From NCBI GenBank assembly GCA_022482815.1, contig JAKVOM010000001.1, positions 1,178,001 through 1,242,000 of the forward strand: a stretch of 64,000 bases of DNA, written 5' to 3'. A program made the translations under genes and the position numbers. Shown here one piece after another: positions 46,951-60,328 of the stretch. The notes under the pieces were generated by a model that saw only the letters and a program-made list of their open reading frames with translations, searched no databases and had not been told where the DNA came from. Every line of letters begins with the position of its first letter. Positions within the stretch are counted from its first letter, which is position 1. The stretch comes from Acidaminococcus sp. GTDB lineage: Bacteria > Bacillota > Negativicutes > Acidaminococcales > Acidaminococcaceae.

Positions 46951-47049
46951 AAAAAAGCTGTGGCGCTTCGCGCGAAAAGATGGAAACTATCCTCCGCCAC
47001 TTCGTGGCTCCTCCTCCTTCCGACTGAGTGGAAGGAGGTTGCAGAAGAT
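46940..47049 (+). repeat. Fragment of dispersed repeats next to the IS end
   Basis: A GTGGTTAGTGAGTAG piece (reading partly into the PilO stop), hairpins GGCGCTTCGCGC and CCACTTCGTGG, and CTCCTTCCGACTGAGTGGAAGGAG. Cut off by the IS1182 left end. Confidence 0.5.
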
Positions 47050-48938
47050 GGGGCTGTCGCAAGTGACCGATTTTTAATCCCTGAAATAACTTGCTAAAGA
47101 CCCCAAATTGCCTTACTTTTTAGTTGAATATGTTTTGAGATGAAAAAAGGGCGCACGAAATTAAGCAACTCTAAGTTGCTTTTTTTCGTGCGCTCTTTTT
47201 GTATCTTTTAGGCCTCTTTTTTCAGCGGATATAAGTGCAAATCCTCTTTGCCGTCTTGAACTTTGTGATGGACCTTCAGGACATTCCGTGCCATGGCACA
47301 TATTCCCACTGTTACCAGGGCATTTCCTTTGCCTCGGGTTTCTAGTCTTCTGACGTTTAATGAATCCTTGAGATCCGCAAAGGCTCCTTCTGCCTGTATA
47401 CTGCGGTTCATCCTCAGTTCCTTACCATATTCGGAAGTAATGTTCTTCAGGGATTCTGCCCTCAATGCAGCAAAATTCTTCGAGACCACTAATTTCTTGT
47501 TTCTTTTCTCCATGGGTGTCCTGCAATTGTTCCCATGGATGCACTGTTCCTTGTAGGGACAACCGCTGCAGTCCTTACATTCGTAATATGTTTTCTCTGA
47601 CACATATCCTGACCGGTTCTTTACCTGGGTTACTTTACTGACTTTCAGCAGTCTCCTACCTTTACAGATATACATGTCTTGATCAGGCAAATATGTCATG
47701 TTTTCTGCTTTGCCGATGTCGTTCTTATACTTTTTCCTCTTGCTTCTTTCATAATTGTTAGGCTTGATATATGAAGTATACTGATTCTTCTTCAGCCAGA
47801 CCAAGTTCTCTTCGCTTTCATAGCCTGCATCGGCTACAATGTTTGCAAATTTCTGACCGAAGTGGGCTTCAAATCCTTCAAGAAAAGGAATGAGTGTCCG
47901 CATATCTGTTGGATGTGCACTCACATCTGCAAACAAGGTAAAACCGGAATTGTTGGCATATTGGACATTGTATCCCGGCTTTAAGGCGCCATTAAGCATG
48001 GCGTCTTCTTTCATCCTCATAAAGGTAGCATCCGGGTCTGTTTTGGCAAAGCTGTTCCGTTCCCCACAGATGTGAAGCTGCTTCGTATACACCTTAAGCC
48101 GTTTGAGATAGTTAGCTAAAATCTCATAGTACTTCTGTAGAATGGTCTTTCTTTTCCCACATCCGTGAACAAACTCGATCCCTTCAGCCCGCTTTATGAC
48201 AAGCAGTTTTTTTAGGAGCTTCTTTAAATGACGGATGTGGAAAGTGTTTCCGTAACAGACCTTGATTCCGAAACGTTCCTCGATTTCGGGAACCAGTTGC
48301 TCCAGTTTCTCTATGAGTTTGTTCTGGCTGCCTAAGACTCTGTTTTTCCAAACAAATTTGTATTTGTTTGCCACAGATTCAATTTTTGTCCCATCGATGA
48401 ACAGGCTATCCAGCGTGATGAAACCGCGAGCCAGCAGCCATTTATCCATCTGAATCATGAGCTCCTTGATACATGGTTTTAGATGGAGGGAACAAAATCT
48501 TGCAATGGTTGCATTATCCGGAGCTTTTTTCCCATCTAAGAGGAACATGAAATGAGTGTCTCTTTTACAGGATTGCTCTATCTTACGCGAACCACGAATT
48601 CCTTCCATACATGCATAAATGACGATCTCCAGCAGCTGAATTGGTGACGTTAATTTATTCTCGACATGAGAATACGTGTCATACAATGCCTTTACATCCA
48701 TCCCTTCTACCATGGCACGCACCAAGCGAACAGGATCGTCATTAGGGATTTGTACTTCAAAATTTAGAGGAAGAAAAAGTTGATAAGAACTGCCAATTTT
48801 TGTATAATCCTTTTGTGTAGGTTTGTTTTTTGGCATATTTAAATTCTACACCAAGGCGCGGTCTCATTCAATGAGGCCGCGCCTTGCTTTTACCTTGTTT
48901 TTGATACAAAAGGGGCCGTCGCAAAATGCGACAGCCCC
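47050..48938 (-). mobile_element. IS1182-family insertion sequence, copy 1
   Basis: About 1889 bases. The ends are inverted repeats GGGGCTGTCGCA (47050-47061) and TGCGACAGCCCC (48927-48938). Left of the transposase is a T-tailed nested hairpin (47142-47201); right of it a 16-bp stem AAGGCGCGGTCTCATT (48853-48868) with its partner to 48885 lies between the IS end and the transposase promoter, likely blocking read-in. Relative to copy 2 it has an 11-base insertion near 48890. No clear target duplication was seen. Confidence 0.9.
47208..48836 (-). CDS. IS1182-family DDE transposase, copy 1
   Basis: 542 residues, intact. N-terminal DUF772 region (DDPVRLVRAMVEGMDV, EIVIYACMEGIRGSRKIE), DDE domain with DGTKIES and a late YKCKDC-like zinc cluster (CSGCPYKEQC), and the C-terminal QAEGAFADLKDSLNVRR that carries the last acidic residue. 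Differs from copy 2 at two positions seen by eye (P2/Q2 and E/K near 155). Confidence 0.95.
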   Translation of the reverse strand: MPKNKPTQKDYTKIGSSYQLFLPLNFEVQIPNDDPVRLVRAMVEGMDVKALYDTYSHVENKLTSPIQLLEIVIYACMEGIRGSRKIEQSCKRDTHFMFLLDGKKAPDNATIARFCSLHLKPCIKELMIQMDKWLLARGFITLDSLFIDGTKIESVANKYKFVWKNRVLGSQNKLIEKLEQLVPEIEERFGIKVCYGNTFHIRHLKKLLKKLLVIKRAEGIEFVHGCGKRKTILQKYYEILANYLKRLKVYTKQLHICGERNSFAKTDPDATFMRMKEDAMLNGALKPGYNVQYANNSGFTLFADVSAHPTDMRTLIPFLEGFEAHFGQKFANIVADAGYESEENLVWLKKNQYTSYIKPNNYERSKRKKYKNDIGKAENMTYLPDQDMYICKGRRLLKVSKVTQVKNRSGYVSEKTYYECKDCSGCPYKEQCIHGNNCRTPMEKRNKKLVVSKNFAALRAESLKNITSEYGKELRMNRSIQAEGAFADLKDSLNVRRLETRGKGNALVTVGICAMARNVLKVHHKVQDGKEDLHLYPLKKEA

Positions 48939-49199: not shown

Positions 49200-49601
49200 A
49201 TGGAAAATAAATATTTCAGGACAAAAACAACAGTATCTTTAATCAACTATCATTTTGTATTCTGTCCCAAATACCGTCGCAAGATATTCTTGATTCCTCA
49301 TGTCGAGGAGAGATTTAAGGAGCTGACACGGCAGATATGCGATGAGCTCAAAATTGAAATCCTTGCCATGGAATGCCATATCGACCATGTGCATTTGTTT
49401 TTAAGATGCTGGCCGAAGCAATCCCCTGCCGAAATTATGAGGGAGGTGAAAGGAGTTTCCTCCCATCGACTTCGAGATGAATTTCCTCAACTGAGTGGTA
49501 TGTCGTCATTATGGACCAGGAGCTATTTTGTTTCGACGGCCGGCAATGTTAGCAGCGAAACGATTAAACGCTATGTGGATACTCAAAAAACCAGGGGGTG
49601 A
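49200..49601 (+). CDS. tnpA: IS200/IS605 Y1 transposase TnpA
   Basis: 133 residues from ATG 49200 (ENKYFRTKTTVSLINYHFV). HUH motif H63-V-H65 in HIDHVHLFL and catalytic tyrosine Y125 in TIKRYVDTQ; full length. It cuts and joins single-stranded DNA at hairpin-marked ends. An in-frame start at 49143 would add 19 residues from the left end. 6 bases separate it from tnpB. Confidence 0.95.
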   Translation: MENKYFRTKTTVSLINYHFVFCPKYRRKIFLIPHVEERFKELTRQICDELKIEILAMECHIDHVHLFLRCWPKQSPAEIMREVKGVSSHRLRDEFPQLSGMSSLWTRSYFVSTAGNVSSETIKRYVDTQKTRG

Positions 49602-55464: not shown

Positions 55465-55481
55465 AATATTACAAAGACAAG

Positions 55482-57359
55482 GGGGCTGTCGCAAGTGACC
55501 GATTTTTAATCCCTGAAATAACTTGCTAAAGGCCCCAATTTGCCTTACTTTTTAGTTGGATATGTTTTGAGATGAAAAAAGGGCGCACGAAATTAAGCAA
55601 CCCTAAGTTGCTTTTTTTCGAGCGCTCTTTTTGTATCTTTTAGGCCTCTTTTTTCAGCGGATATAAGTGCAAATCCTCTTTGCCGTCTTGAACTTTGTGA
55701 TGGACCTTCAGGACATTCCGTGCCATGGCACATATTCCCACTGTTACCAGGGCATTTCCTTTGCCTCGGGTTTCTAATCTTCTGACGTTTAATGAATCCT
55801 TGAGATCCGCAAAGGCTCCTTCTGCCTGTATACTGCGGTTCATCCTCAGTTCCTTACCATATTCGGAAGTAATGTTCTTCAGGGATTCTGCCCTCAATGC
55901 AGCAAAATTCTTCGAGACCACTAATTTCTTGTTTCTTTTCTCCATAGGTGTCCTGCAATTGTTCCCATGGATGCACTGTTCCTTGTAGGGACAACCGCTG
56001 CAGTCCTTACATTCGTAATATGTTTTCTCTGACACATATCCCGACCGGTTCTTTACCTGGGTTACTTTGCTGACTTTCAGCAGTCTCCTACCTTTACAGA
56101 TATACATGTCTTGATCAGGCAAATATGTCATGTTTTCTGCTTTGCCGATGTCGTTCTTATACTTTTTCCTCTTGCTTCTTTCATAATTGTTAGGCTTGAT
56201 ATATGAAGTATACTGATTCTTCTTCAGCCAGACCAAGTTCTCTTCGCTTTCATAGCCTGCATCGGCTACAATGTTTGCAAATTTCTGACCGAAGTGGGCT
56301 TCAAATCCTTCAAGAAAAGGAATGAGTGTCCGCATATCTGTGGGATGTGCACTCACATCTGCAAACAAGGTAAAACCGGAATTGTTTGCATATTGGACAT
56401 TGTATCCCGGCTTTAAGGCGCCATTAAGCATGGCATCTTCTTTCATCCTCATAAAGGTAGCATCCGGGTCTGTTTTGGCAAAGCTGTTCCGTTCCCCACA
56501 GATGTGAAGCTGCTTCGTATACACCTTAAGCCGTTTGAGATAGTTAGCTAAAATCTCATAGTACTTCTGTAGAATGGTCTTTCTTTTCCCACATCCGTGA
56601 ACAAACTCGATTCCCTCAGCCCGCTTTATGACAAGCAGTTTTTTTAGGAGCTTCTTTAAATGACGGATGTGGAAAGTGTTTCCGTAACAGACCTTGATTC
56701 CGAAACGTTCCTCGATTTCGGGAACCAGTTGCTCCAGTTTCTCTATGAGTTTGTTCTGGCTGCCTAAGACTCTGTTTTTCCAAACAAATTTGTACTTGTT
56801 TGCCACAGATTCAATTTTTGTCCCATCGATGAACAGGCTATCCAGAGTGATGAAACCGCGAGCCAGCAGCCATTTATCCATCTGAATCATGAGTTTCTTG
56901 ATACATGGTTTTAGATGGAGGGAACAAAATCTTGCAATGGTTGCATTATCCGGAGCTTTTTTCCCATCTAAGAGAAACATGAAATGAGTGTCTCTTTTAC
57001 AGGATTGCTCTATCTTACGCGAACCACGAATTCCTTCCATACATGCATAAATGACGATTTCCAGCAGCTGAATTGGTGACGTTAATTTATTCTCGACATG
57101 AGAATACGTGTCATACAATGCCTTTACATCCATCCCTTCTACCATGGCACGCACCAAGCGAACAGGATCGTCATTAGGGATTTGTACTTCAAAATTTAGA
57201 GGAAGAAAAAGTTGATAAGAACTACCAATTTTTGTATAATCCTTTTGTGTAGGTTTGTTTTTTTGCATATTTAAATTCTACACCAAGGCGCGGTCTCATT
57301 CAATGAGGCCGCGCCTTGCTTTTGATACAAAAGAGGCCGTCGCAAAATGCGACAGCCCC
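55482..57359 (-). mobile_element. IS1182-family insertion sequence, copy 2
   Basis: 1878 bases between GGGGCTGTCGCA (55482-55493) and TGCGACAGCCCC (57348-57359), same orientation as copy 1 and about 98-99% identical by eye. The insulating stem is at 57285-57317. The T-tailed hairpin after the transposase (55575-55631) has decayed slightly (CGAGCGCTC versus GCGCACG). Confidence 0.9.
55640..57268 (-). CDS. IS1182-family DDE transposase, copy 2
   Basis: 542 residues, intact and nearly identical to copy 1 (second residue Q instead of P, and K instead of E in CIKKLM). Same domain content: DUF772 N-terminus, DDE core, cysteine cluster and C-terminal EGAFADLKD. Two intact near-identical copies indicate recent transposition. 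Confidence 0.95.
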   Translation of the reverse strand: MQKNKPTQKDYTKIGSSYQLFLPLNFEVQIPNDDPVRLVRAMVEGMDVKALYDTYSHVENKLTSPIQLLEIVIYACMEGIRGSRKIEQSCKRDTHFMFLLDGKKAPDNATIARFCSLHLKPCIKKLMIQMDKWLLARGFITLDSLFIDGTKIESVANKYKFVWKNRVLGSQNKLIEKLEQLVPEIEERFGIKVCYGNTFHIRHLKKLLKKLLVIKRAEGIEFVHGCGKRKTILQKYYEILANYLKRLKVYTKQLHICGERNSFAKTDPDATFMRMKEDAMLNGALKPGYNVQYANNSGFTLFADVSAHPTDMRTLIPFLEGFEAHFGQKFANIVADAGYESEENLVWLKKNQYTSYIKPNNYERSKRKKYKNDIGKAENMTYLPDQDMYICKGRRLLKVSKVTQVKNRSGYVSEKTYYECKDCSGCPYKEQCIHGNNCRTPMEKRNKKLVVSKNFAALRAESLKNITSEYGKELRMNRSIQAEGAFADLKDSLNVRRLETRGKGNALVTVGICAMARNVLKVHHKVQDGKEDLHLYPLKKEA

Positions 57360-57665
57360 CTTTTTTTACGCTTTCCGCAGTTTGCCGTCCGCATCAAATA
57401 AACAAAAACATATCAGGTTTGACTGGTGAGAAAGGCTACCATCCACCGCAAGCGGTTCCCCTTCCTCCGACGCCGCGTAGCGGTGTGGAAGAAGGTCCTC
57501 GTGCAATAATGTTTCGTATTGCCCAATTTATATAAAAATAGCTGCAGAAAATTTAATAGTATGTGCTTTTAATTCTTCATAAAAAGCAAGCCGACATTCT
57601 TTTAATAAATGAAAACAAGGCATACGCTTCTTCCGAGACGTACGCCCTGATGGTACACCTCATTT
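57360..57665 (+). other. Repeat debris right of IS1182 copy 2
   Basis: No gene. 57441-57506 is a diverged reverse piece of the palindromic dispersed module (CACCGCAAGCGGTTCCCC, GACGCCGCGTAGCGGTGTGG). 57619-57646 is a hairpin GCATACG-CTTCTTCCGAGA-CGTACGC-type stem that recurs at 57968-57994. Confidence 0.55.
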
Positions 57666-57875
57666 TTCATTTTTTCACAGAAGATTTGCTGTAAGACAGT
57701 CGCAGATATAAGGGAGCCGGTGACTAATTCAACGCGCCATCTTCACGCATCTGCGCTGATCTCTCGTTGTTGACAAAAGCTTGACTTACACCCGGTAAAT
57801 CATCAATTTGTCGCCTGGAGAGATACAGTGCATCTGTATGAATCTGGCACATCTCATTTAGTCATCGTCTCCCTA
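57666..57875. repeat. Array repeat unit, copy A
   Basis: 210 bases that recur without any insertion or deletion at 58181-58390 (offset 515, 9 differences counted by eye). Contains the block CACAGAAGATTTGCTG..AGACAGTCGCAG, which also occurs partly at 58026-58060 and 58520-58550, and a 42-codon reverse-strand frame. Confidence 0.9.
57724..57852 (-). CDS. Candidate 42-residue small ORF, copy A
   Basis: ATG to TAG on the reverse strand, starting MCQIHTDALYLSRR and ending AQMREDGALN. Duplicated in copy B with I16S and Q24R plus one silent change. The ribosome site is poor (AGGGAG is 17 bases upstream), and no homologue is known to me. It could be the tail of a lost larger gene. The ratio of changes gives no evidence for selection. 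Confidence 0.3.
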   Translation of the reverse strand: MCQIHTDALYLSRRQIDDLPGVSQAFVNNERSAQMREDGALN

Positions 57876-58180
57876 AAAGACCGGATTGGGACCGCGAAGT
57901 CGGAACTGAGCGCGAATGATTCACTAACATAGCGGGAGTGAGAGAAATGATTTCATCTTTAAATAAAGCATACGCTTCTTCCGAAACGTATGCCCTGACA
58001 TCACACCTGTTTTTAATTTTGTTTCTGATGGACTCTGCTGCAAGACGGTTGCAGATACGCGAAAGGCGGGGGCGGGACCAAAAAGATATAGGGCCTTCGA
58101 TAATTAATTACACATCAATTCAACTAGTTCGTTCTTACCCTAAGCATTTAGTAAAAAACTAGTTTTCAACACTAACATAT

Positions 58181-58390
58181 TTCATTTTTTCACAGAAGAT
58201 TTGCTGTAAGACAGTCGCAGATGCAAGGGAACCAATGACTAATTCAACGCGCCATCTTCACGCATCTGCGCTGATCTCTCGTTGTTGACAAAAGCTCGAC
58301 TTACACCCGGTAAATCATCGCTTTGTCGCCTGGAGAGATACAGCGCATCTGTATGAATCTGGCACATCTCATTTAGTCATCGTCTCCCTA
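58181..58390. repeat. Array repeat unit, copy B
   Basis: Second copy of the 210-base unit, colinear with copy A. It is followed by a different flank (GAAGGACACTGTGG), while copy A is followed by AGACCGGATTGGGACCGCG, which recurs at 58559. Confidence 0.9.
58239..58367 (-). CDS. Candidate 42-residue small ORF, copy B
   Basis: Same frame as at 57724-57852, with serine at position 16 and arginine at 24, otherwise identical. Same weak translation signals. Confidence 0.3.
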   Translation of the reverse strand: MCQIHTDALYLSRRQSDDLPGVSRAFVNNERSAQMREDGALN

Positions 58391-58670
58391 GAAGGACACT
58401 GTGGGGCTCAGAAAATGTAGAAATTCGATAATTACAGATCAATCCAGCAAGTTCGTTTTTAACATAGACTAAGCATTTAGCAGAATACTAGTTTTCAGTA
58501 ATAACATTTTATATTTTTTCACAGAAGATTTGCTGCAAGACAGTCGCAGGTGCGCGAAAGACCGGATTGGGACCGCGAAGTCGTACAAAAAACGTACGTC
58601 GAGTGGTCACAATCCGGTCTGACAAAGCAGATGCGATTGGATTCTGCAAATCGCTCTGTGAATTTCCTTT
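58391..58670. repeat. Partial array units and long hairpin
   Basis: 58470-58558 repeats, more loosely, the stretch before copy B and the CACAGAAGATTTGCTG block. 58559-58620 forms a long stem AGACCGGATTG / CAATCCGGTCT (58559-58569, 58610-58620) extended by GACC/GGTC and holding an inner stem CGTAC/GTACG with loop AAAAAAC. The left arm alone occurs at 57878. Confidence 0.75.
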
Positions 58671-58733
58671 AAAAAGCTCTCAGATAAGATGCGTGTGAGG
58701 CCAGCCGAGCACCAGATTATCTGAGGTGCTTTT
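58671..58733 (-). terminator. Terminator of the tannase-like gene
   Basis: On the reverse strand AGCACCTCAGATAA pairs with TTATCTGAGAGCT across a long loop, followed by TTTTT. Confidence 0.75.
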
Positions 58734-58735
58734 AA

Positions 58736-60328
58736 TTACGCGTGACAAATTTTATCAAGCCAATCGAACAATTCGGGCAGATCATAATCCCCCGCATGCC
58801 CCTCACCCCATGCAGCTTCAAAATTCACATCTTTGTTTTGTTCCTGCACCATCAGGGCCAGCTCGGCCGGAACGGCGAGGGCCGTATCACGGTCCAGGCT
58901 GCCGTGGCGGATTCTCCAGTGGGGAGCGACAGTGCCTTTCTTTTCCCGCATCGAGTAGAGCGGATTGAGGAGGTTCGTTACGGTTTCGGGCGCTTCGGCA
59001 TTGGCATCCGTGCGGTGGCTCATGGAAAAAGCCGTGAAATGGCGGGGCGTGTTATTTTCGGTTCCGAACTCGTCATTTTCCGGTGAAGAGCCGTCGAGCT
59101 TATCAAAAGCAGGCGCGGCTTTGAGGCGCGTGGCACTGACGGCGTAGCGGGCAAGGTCCATATCGACGACCTTACCGTCCGAGAATTTCAGCCAGTCAGT
59201 CTTGGAGATGTCTACACCCTGGGACTGAGCCTTTTGTGCCGAGGCAATGTAGACGCTCTTGATATAATCCTTGAAGGAACCATTGCCGTTTGCGTCAAGG
59301 GTGAGCGGCTTGTGGTCAGCACTCTCAAGGTTCAGGCTATTGAGGTAGGCAGGATAAGCGGCTTTCAGTTCTTTGGACACGGCCTGTTCCTGCGGCGTCA
59401 TGACGTTTACGGCCGTGCTTTCCGTCGGAGCGTTGAGCGGACGATCCGTCTTTGTCGTCTGTGCGTTCTTGGCTCCGCCCATGGACCCGCGCTGCTGATG
59501 GTACTCGTTCACGCCGTTAAAAATCCATTCATAGGCCATATCGGCATGGGTGAGGTCCGTAATCGGGCAGTAAACGCTGGCAGCGAAAATATCATCGCGT
59601 TCCTTGGCAGCGCCGATTTCATCAAGATATGGTTCATAGTCGCTGTTATTGCCCGTGGCTCCGAGAAGAGAGGAGAGGGCACCGCCGGCGCTCGTTCCGT
59701 TCGAGATAATGCGGTCCGTATTGCCGGCCGGCAGACGGCTGCGGTTGTATCTCAGGTAGCGCACGGCTGCCTTATAGTCCACGATGAGGGCCGGAGCTTT
59801 GCCTACGTAAGTCCCGTTCTCATCCTTTGTCGTGCGTCCGCGGATGGCCGGAGCAGCAACGACATAGCCGCGGGACAAGGCGTAGAGCACCGCGTTCGGA
59901 CCGGCTTCCCTGCGGTTTGTTTCGCTGGGCTCCAGAATTTCTCCCGGCATATAGCCGCCGACACCGTTCGGCATAAAGATCGGTGCAGTTTTTGCCGTGT
60001 AACCGTTAATGGTGCCGCCTTCGAGGTAAGCAGCCGGCACGTAGAGGTTCATGGATTCATACGCTACAGCCTTCGGATGGCGGACGTAGACGCGATTTTC
60101 ATAGACGTAGAAGGGAACAGATTTGCCGTCTACCGTGAGCGCGTCCTTGCGGTCCGGTTTGGCGACAAAAGTGAGGTCATAGGTCTTTTGGCTGACCGAC
60201 TGGGTCTTTTGCTGACTTACGACCGTAGGGGCTGCTGTCTTGGCAGCGTTTTCTGCCGCGGCGGCTGTGCCCATGGTGCCGATGAGCAGGCTGAGTGCGC
60301 CTGAGAGGACGATTTTACTGGATAACAT
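58736..60328 (-). CDS. Secreted subtype-B tannase-like esterase
   Basis: 530 residues. An N-terminal signal peptide (cleavage near residue 24, after the AAAA stretch) and an alpha/beta-hydrolase catalytic domain with nucleophile S213 in GTSAGGALSSLLG. The C-terminal acid is probably D479 or D481 (HGSLDRDTAL) and histidine H511 (GEGHAGDYD). This arrangement matches subtype-B bacterial tannases, which hydrolyse galloyl esters of plant tannins, and the related feruloyl esterase group. Signal peptidase I in the window could process it. AAAAGGAGTGAATTCTTT precedes the ATG. It stands alone, convergent with the repeat array. Confidence 0.87.
   Translation of the reverse strand: MLSSKIVLSGALSLLIGTMGTAAAAENAAKTAAPTVVSQQKTQSVSQKTYDLTFVAKPDRKDALTVDGKSVPFYVYENRVYVRHPKAVAYESMNLYVPAAYLEGGTINGYTAKTAPIFMPNGVGGYMPGEILEPSETNRREAGPNAVLYALSRGYVVAAPAIRGRTTKDENGTYVGKAPALIVDYKAAVRYLRYNRSRLPAGNTDRIISNGTSAGGALSSLLGATGNNSDYEPYLDEIGAAKERDDIFAASVYCPITDLTHADMAYEWIFNGVNEYHQQRGSMGGAKNAQTTKTDRPLNAPTESTAVNVMTPQEQAVSKELKAAYPAYLNSLNLESADHKPLTLDANGNGSFKDYIKSVYIASAQKAQSQGVDISKTDWLKFSDGKVVDMDLARYAVSATRLKAAPAFDKLDGSSPENDEFGTENNTPRHFTAFSMSHRTDANAEAPETVTNLLNPLYSMREKKGTVAPHWRIRHGSLDRDTALAVPAELALMVQEQNKDVNFEAAWGEGHAGDYDLPELFDWLDKICHA

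Follow-up and report, generated by a model that had tools for sequence, protein, structure and literature searches.

Small palindromic repeats are common in bacteria, and to our knowledge the way in which they choose their sites is mostly unknown. REP sequences, which go with the RAYT Y1 transposases, are extragenic hairpins presumed to move as single strands and are much shorter than the element described below, and in attC sites the folded strand is antisense to the gene and lies directly after its stop codon. It has been reported that YPAL (RU-2) of Yersinia is about 168 bp long, with target duplications of 3–26 bp, targets that span or adjoin dyad symmetry, and both empty and filled sites, and that it is expressed with upstream genes, the wording there being co-translated (PMC2229807, in excerpt). 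The same excerpt gives ERIC/IRU as a 127-bp repeat with 7-bp terminal inverted repeats, TA termini and target duplications. Its transcript folds into a long stem, and the repeat is co-transcribed with its neighbours and alters mRNA stability in one orientation. YPAL and ERIC are among the stem-loop families in an excerpt of PMC2267715, which also describes DNA uptake sequence terminators, i.e., repeats that form terminators and consist of short oligonucleotides in closely spaced complementary pairs. An attC-like motif, OTH-22-1, together with a class of mobile/repeat motifs, appears in a part of PMC8632094, and mobile/repeat candidates are also mentioned in a part of PMC6429828.

The element found here is a two-hairpin repeat of about 220 nt, for which small palindromic repeats such as YPAL and ERIC are the nearest known kinds. 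Like YPAL, it consists of dispersed intergenic palindromes; unlike YPAL, it has two hairpins, a conserved internal loop, class-wide relatives and a near-fixed orientation and distance from a stop codon, such a fixed distance being unmentioned in the excerpt of PMC2229807, and duplications of the 3–26 bp kind given there were not recognised. The likeness is one of description, and homology is not claimed. Neither the terminal inverted repeats nor the TA termini nor the target duplications of ERIC, as that excerpt gives them, were recognised in the element, and its two-hairpin form is unlike the short paired DNA uptake sequence terminators. It differs from REP/RAYT in that Y1 transposases do not follow it, and from attC in its boxes and in the lack of an IntI above the cut-off. 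No published description of the element was recognised, including in the parts seen of PMC2229807, PMC2267715, PMC8632094, PMC6429828 and PMC4227781 (IStrons, Negativicutes); an unnamed mobile/repeat motif of PMC8632094 or PMC6429828 may include it. The family of hairpin repeats is apparently unnamed, and membership in any named family is not claimed.

A duplicated unit within a broken array

The window, i.e., the whole stretch of 64,000 nt analysed, comes from an Acidaminococcus genome (class Negativicutes) that is a single contig of 3,057,042 bases. The original prediction had placed here two colinear stretches of 210 bases, at 57666–57875 and 58181–58390, and the recount gave exactly the 9 differences reported. 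Apart from the two copies, the best ungapped match of this unit in the window reaches 81 of 210 identities (92 on the reverse strand), which excludes chance as the source of the duplication. The ungapped match of the two units reaches 219 nt (57661–57879 and 58176–58394, 95%); the partial relatives are present as well (58012–58079 against 58507–58574, 71%; 58469–58553 against 58140–58224, 87%), as are the 42-residue reverse-strand frames in both copies (57724–57852 and 58239–58367). A similarity search with the 210-base unit gave 26 matches in its own genome, and the unit is therefore a dispersed repeat; the DNA similarity search found it in 0 of 40 related genomes, with at most 19 candidates scored per genome. 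The first approximately 40 bases of the unit are the 5′ arm of a longer element and the next approximately 163 bases are an imperfect palindrome, and each duplicated copy combines the 5′ arm of a broken element with a nested hairpin of about 163 nt in inverted orientation. The features of the locus, with matches to the covariance model R1 and to model R2, are as follows.

57613..57660, forward strand: leader hairpin of unit 1, GCATACGC..GACGTACGC, the outer 5′ part of the element; a 78% copy lies at 57961, and similar leaders occur, by inspection, upstream of several other genomic copies
57666..57707, forward strand: 5′ arm of hairpin A of unit 1, matching the 5′ arm of intact copies
57709..57875, reverse strand: nested hairpin M3 of unit 1, which folds with the reverse strand as its structured strand; together with the preceding arm it makes up the first 210-base copy of the original prediction
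57876..57943, forward strand: 5′ side of the inner stem of unit 1 (57876–57902 against 58557–58583, 100%), then, by inspection, a truncated stretch resembling another repeat, without a 3′ arm
57961..58079, forward strand: unit 2, a leader and the 5′ arm of hairpin A only, truncated (repeat families D3 and D4)
58181..58222, forward strand: 5′ arm of hairpin A of unit 3 (repeat families D1 and D2)
58224..58390, reverse strand: nested hairpin M3 of unit 3, then truncated; the second copy of the original prediction
58512..58733, forward strand: unit 4, an intact copy of 222 nt and the sole copy in the window matched by R1 (238.8 bits)
58516..58663, forward strand: hairpin A of the intact copy, with the internal loop CAGGTGCGCGAAAG / CTGACAAAGCAGATG (R2, 113.9 bits at 58525–58655)
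58676..58727, forward strand: hairpin B, followed on the gene strand by the T-run GAGAGCTTTTT, terminator-like
58736..60328, reverse strand: convergent subtype B tannase gene (NF041556, 622.8 bits against a cut-off of 300)

From left to right, the array consists of units 1, 2 and 3, which are broken and lack their gene-side halves, and unit 4, which is intact beside the tannase gene, the stop codon of the latter being 2 nt from the 3′ end of the element. The locus is, nearly certainly, a small graveyard of copies of a dispersed hairpin element, most of them broken, and what looks like an ordinary duplication is the remnant of a large family of repeats that are structured and sharply constrained in their placement. 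Among the earlier suggestions, a reiterated decayed element and a structured RNA locus were near right, as both units are shortened copies of a dispersed hairpin element with conserved structure, and the pair of small-protein genes was not borne out (see the last section). It had also been foreseen that both copies might be debris from the interior of a known mobile element or gene, and no sign of this was found: the element had no Rfam match at the gathering score in the stretches scanned (four scans), its DNA had no match in plasmid and phage collections, and its exact pattern had none in viral contigs. Sub-gathering Rfam matches, some of which overlap the element on the other strand (e.g., mir-3047 at L193), were taken as chance. 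A T-box leader-like match at L213:1821–2037 (+), of 75.7 bits against a gathering score of 93, lies near an element copy and is a separate stretch from it.

The array in the window would have arisen as successive copies inserted into one spot and the older ones were eroded by palindrome-associated deletion. Tandem or partial copies beyond a gene-side copy are likewise seen in other genomes, some lacking only the inner stem; counter to the order proposed for the window, however, guaA of genome G004 has the partial copy on the gene side and the intact copy 66 nt from the stop. The tannase has its best homologues in Acidaminococcus (RUG14209, 64%; A. intestini, 71% over part), and R1 had no match among 16 loci with homologues of the tannase gene.

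Transposase genes also lie in the window. Two DDE transposase genes of equal length (542 aa) and with the same Pfam matches, DDE_Tnp_1_6 and DUF772, lie on the reverse strand at 47208–48836 and 55640–57268; 47043–47342 and 55475–55774 in these regions are 97% identical, and the second gene directly adjoins the array. An IS200/IS605-type Y1 transposase lies at about 49230–49586 (+) of the window (PF01797 match, G000:C1:1227230–1227586). The genome itself (G000) has 3.06 Mb, compared with 2.2–2.7 Mb in the other eight genomes of the genus, and carries several repeat families.

Fold, terminator-like hairpin and placement at gene ends

A search of the own genome with 58507–58690 gave 47 matches. 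Of 30 retrieved loci, 25 were aligned over 226 columns (alignment A1), L052, L053, L054 and L056 being left out for inserted or truncated hairpins and L055 for a divergent outer stem. The 25 aligned copies are 222–224 nt long and consist of two hairpins, A of about 150 nt with internal loops and B of about 52 nt. RNAalifold predicted 64 pairs for them, 41 of which have changes on both sides; 97.3% of the cells of A1 are paired, compared with 80.9% in shuffled and 32–41% in slid alignments, and double-change cells number 254 against 72.6 ± 7.0 in shuffled ones. On the forward strand, 85 wobble cells are G.U and 12 are A.C (binomial 1e-14, a value that ignores kinship); since strand-blind decay of a palindrome would give approximately equal numbers of the two, this points to selection on the forward strand. 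The same wobble sense is found in the cross-genus set (75 vs. 24), and the forward strand folds better in 25 of 25 copies. As read from these substitution patterns, stem pairing on one strand is under strong selection. Alignment A3, which holds 32 of 38 candidate hairpin-A cores and from which model R2 was built, has 94.6% of its cells paired and 230 double-change cells against 71.7 ± 7.3 in shuffled alignments. The internal loop is largely constant across genera; because A3 was picked with a pattern containing the internal-loop motif, the invariance of the loop columns is partly built in, and divergent loops were detected by R2, itself built from A3.

In 29 of 30 copies of the own genome, hairpin B is directly preceded at its 5′ side by an A-run, which reads as a T-run in the direction of the gene, and by sequence it has the form of an intrinsic terminator, so that it probably terminates the adjacent gene in this genome. 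A simple terminator scanner with a loop limit of 8 did not list hairpin B. In several other species hairpin B is absent, and terminator activity therefore cannot explain the position of the element everywhere. In 6 of the 30 copies (L058, L059, L060, L066, L071 and L075), a terminator-like hairpin pointing the other way, mostly GCCGCC..GGCGGC with a T-rich tail, lies directly 5′ of the element, and the structured strand may thus escape read-through transcription there, which weakly favours a role of hairpin A at the DNA level.

The 3′ foot of the structured strand lies at a convergent stop codon in most copies examined. A copy was scored as placed at a gene end if an open frame of 100 codons or more, convergent with it, stopped within −30..+60 nt of the 3′ end of the element, gene ends being taken from open frames rather than from a gene caller. 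Such a stop was found for 25 of 30 own copies at offsets from −1 to +34, with 2 of 30 in the mirror control (Fisher, 1e-9), the 30 being the best of at least 82 and a looser first test having given 28 of 30. In other genomes it was found for 35 of 46 copies at offsets from −17 to +53, with 5 of 46 in the mirror control (Fisher, 2e-10), where several of the 46 share a genome or stand beside orthologous genes and the copies are not all independent. The 46 derive from 51 places kept among 90 matches, the remaining 5 of the 51 being too near a contig end; dropped from the 90 were repeat entries of one place under another locus id, echoes on the opposite strand, and matches that were weak or partial. 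The neighbours in the own genome are ordinary genes (an SDF transporter/dicarboxylate symporter, histidinol dehydrogenase HisD, polyphosphate kinase Ppk, pyruvate kinase, LysR, HutP, an aromatic amino acid lyase, MatE, and a UvrA-like neighbour recognised by its C-terminal part, below the full-length cut-off), and those in other genera include PrmA, DAP epimerase, DNA ligase, dehydroquinate (DHQ) synthase and LptF/G, 1 of 10 scanned being without a family. The site rule (a gene end, one orientation, and mostly a few nt from the stop) offers a handle on the site choice of small repeats.

A bias towards one replication strand was also considered. It gave p values of 0.003, 0.001 and 0.05 for an assumed terminus at 1.40, 1.53 and 1.65 Mb, respectively, the GC-skew switch points lying elsewhere; in a hand recount the bias was about that expected from gene orientation, and no claim is made.

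Dispersal, gain and loss, and module exchange

In the own genome, R1 had at least 82 matches at E up to 0.1, at least 36 of them above 170 bits; 150 of 704 first-look candidates were scored, so the copy number is a bound, and the weak matches include fragments and at least one opposite-strand echo. This one genome thus holds many dispersed non-coding palindromes of approximately 100–250 nt, as is the case for MITE-like repeats of the YPAL/ERIC kind. R1 matches occur in 20 of 59 genomes and 4 of 18 genera of the family. In the genus, 2 of 9 genomes are without a match to the element. In four sister species the copies are mostly hairpin A alone, with a core of 88–89 nt and a tail of about GGTTATGCGTTAGCC in most of them, and within the genus the hairpin-A core is near-constant in length (87–89 nt). 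Model R2 had matches in at least 78 of 380 genomes and at least 36 of 102 genera of the class (E up to 1e-4), and in at least 14 of 398 genomes and at least 8 of 267 genera across the phylum (E up to 1e-6), two of the 14 being genomes of the class, one of them the own genome. In the class and phylum searches at most 8–9 candidates were scored per genome, and since only part of the first-look candidates was scored, absences and copy numbers are bounds. A second subfamily was seen at L136:2164–2385 and 2512–2733, where two near-identical copies stand 126 nt apart with a tail of about GAGGCGTCAMCCC, resembling the copies of G005 (L087 and L106).

The presence of the element varies at orthologous sites, in each case between species. 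GMP synthase (guaA) was found in 8 of the 9 genomes of the genus, with an identical protein end in all 8, and R2 matches after its stop in 5 and not in 3 (G008, G003 and G000). G002 and G006 share the same copy, whose hairpin foot is 14 nt after the stop; the foot is 13 nt after it in G007; a weak 21.7-bit match to a decayed copy lies 12 nt after it in G005; and in G004 the match lies 66 nt after it, with the partial copy between. By inspection, the inner stems after guaA are of four kinds. In G008 and G000 the stop is followed by ordinary terminator-like sequence, and a terminator of the G008 type was not visible beyond the guaA elements in the 420 nt inspected. A second case is the UvrA-like gene, which has a copy directly after its stop in G000 and no element there in six other genomes; in G002 and G007 (L164 and L165) it is four codons longer, and the sequence at its stop resembles an element tail from which the hairpin has been lost. 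A further structured-looking stretch (GACGTCAGACACGGCC ...) follows the elements downstream of guaA in L153, L154 and L156 and recurs, e.g., in L164.

In 13 of the 25 aligned copies, the copy nearest in hairpin A has a hairpin B of less than 70% identity, and the hairpin B of another copy is 85–100% identical; hairpin A of L029, for example, is closest to that of L036, and its hairpin B is identical to that of L030. The mismatch indicates that modules have been exchanged between copies. The family has accordingly been dispersed, gained or lost between species, and reshuffled by module.

Candidate mechanisms and the reverse-strand frame

Mobility of the element is likely, and it is on balance probable that it is a mobile but non-autonomous hairpin, which settles at the 3′ ends of genes and in this genome probably has terminator function. 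It would work like a MITE-type palindromic repeat, spreading via a trans-supplied factor that recognises the folded strand, as RNA or as single-stranded DNA, and that inserts the element at gene 3′ ends, antisense and near the stop codon; hairpin B would then serve as the terminator of the adjacent gene in its own species. The 5 of 30 own copies and 11 of 46 copies elsewhere that depart from the placement rule count against this best explanation, as do the lack of DNA matches in the plasmid and phage collections and of exact-pattern matches in viral contigs. No target-site duplication was recognised by eye at the own-genome and guaA loci, where the flanks are much diverged. No mobilising enzyme was found among the two kinds surveyed: a reverse transcriptase is present in 17 and a Y1 transposase in 25 of the 59 genomes of the family, and neither follows the element. 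A wider proposal, that these are phylum-wide selfish structured elements that integrate specifically at gene ends, a few nt from the stop and antisense, via a candidate factor (host-wide or element-specific) recognising the folded strand with its conserved internal loop, and that serve as terminators in some hosts, is put forward tentatively, as less likely than not. Were the element mobile, the 3′ ends and terminators of genes in these bacteria would in part consist of mobile DNA. The sharp site rule, the structure readable from covariation and the class-wide family make both the recognition of the fold and the route to gene ends testable.

The internal loop kept across the class exceeds the needs of a decaying transposable element and would also fit an RNA used by the host. 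In such a case, transcription reading through from the other convergent gene would produce the folded strand, to which a host factor would bind, with a role in 3′-end formation, mRNA stability or the insulation of convergent genes, and copies would be kept by selection rather than transposition. The strong one-strand covariation and wobble bias, the constancy of the loop across genera (partly built in), the strict placement at gene 3′ ends and the terminator-like hairpin B are all consistent with such a role; however, different copies stand at the same stop in sister species and none in others, the neighbouring genes have no function in common, copies are nested and in tandem, and the distribution is patchy even within the genus (2 of 9 genomes without a match), so that we regard a host-used RNA as unlikely.

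Another reading is an attC-like site, i.e., a single-stranded DNA recombination site of a candidate recombinase, which would act on the folded strand antisense to the gene. The geometry is that of the cassette attC, as the site abuts the stop and the structured strand is antisense; the one-strand wobble bias agrees with it, and the tail of some copies reads GTTATGCGTTAGCC. However, none of 42 copies has both the RYYYAAC and the GTTRRRY box (RYYYAAC alone in 1, GTTRRRY in 0), and the copies mostly lie beside unrelated host genes, not in cassette arrays. The integron integrase (TIGR02249) is above the cut-off in 0 of 59 family genomes, with sub-cut-off matches in 58 of 59, a search in which 0 of 14 control genomes passed the cut-off and which hence had no positive control. 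Despite the published attC-like motif OTH-22-1, which lies outside known attC annotations (PMC8632094, in excerpt), this reading is improbable.

A further reading is a SINE-like retroelement, whose RNA would be copied back into DNA by a trans-supplied reverse transcriptase. Wobble pairs and compensatory changes on one strand, the near-constant core length in the genus and three reverse-transcriptase matches at two loci of the own genome would suit it, but the element-bearing genomes G002, G007 and G005 and 5 of 7 genomes of the genus g17 have no match to the reverse-transcriptase family, and it is highly improbable.

The reverse-strand frame lies in the nested hairpin M3. The M3 core is an imperfect palindrome of approximately 163–168 nt (−70.4 kcal/mol, z −8.9). 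For M3, 13 of 14 retrieved copies were aligned, the truncated L007 being left out; all 13 fold better on the reverse strand, 15 of 61 pairs are doubly changed, and the wobble cells on the reverse strand comprise 89 G.U vs. 7 A.C. The reverse-strand folding, double changes and wobble bias indicate that M3 is a second hairpin, in the opposite orientation, placed at the internal loop of hairpin A. By inspection, the motif CAGAT..AGATG is common to M3 and hairpin A. The exact nested-hairpin pattern had 0 matches in a genome-contig collection from which the window's own and near genomes may be missing.

The 42-codon frame is open in 4 of the 6 closest M3 copies, namely the two window copies, which differ by 2 residues, L012 and L014; the other two have one frameshift and one in-frame stop, and an ATG with an open frame is found in 3 of the 6, the ATG being absent from L012. 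All 7 diverged copies likewise lack the ATG, and an early stop occurs in 6 of them. Across the four open frames, changes at codon positions 1, 2 and 3 number 6, 8 and 9, and non-synonymous changes exceed synonymous ones in 6 of 6 pairs. The frame thus stays open in both window copies and in 2 of 4 other close ones, but with frames broken or the ATG lost among close copies, no codon-position signal, and a sequence constrained as a palindrome, a pair of small-protein genes coding for the 42-residue peptide on the reverse strand, as once suggested, is almost certainly not what is present.

M3-type hairpins occur in other settings as well. L052–L054 have an M3-type hairpin of the other orientation within, or in place of, the 3′ arm of hairpin A (GCAGGGAGCCAATGATTCAATGAACGG...). 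A diverged M3 lies inside another repeat (GGAACTGAGCGCCAACGATCC ... GGCCGAAGGCCGCG) at L008 and L015–L020 of the own genome, and in L013 and L018 the repeat that holds M3 itself seems to sit within the inner stem of the element, i.e., as nested modules.
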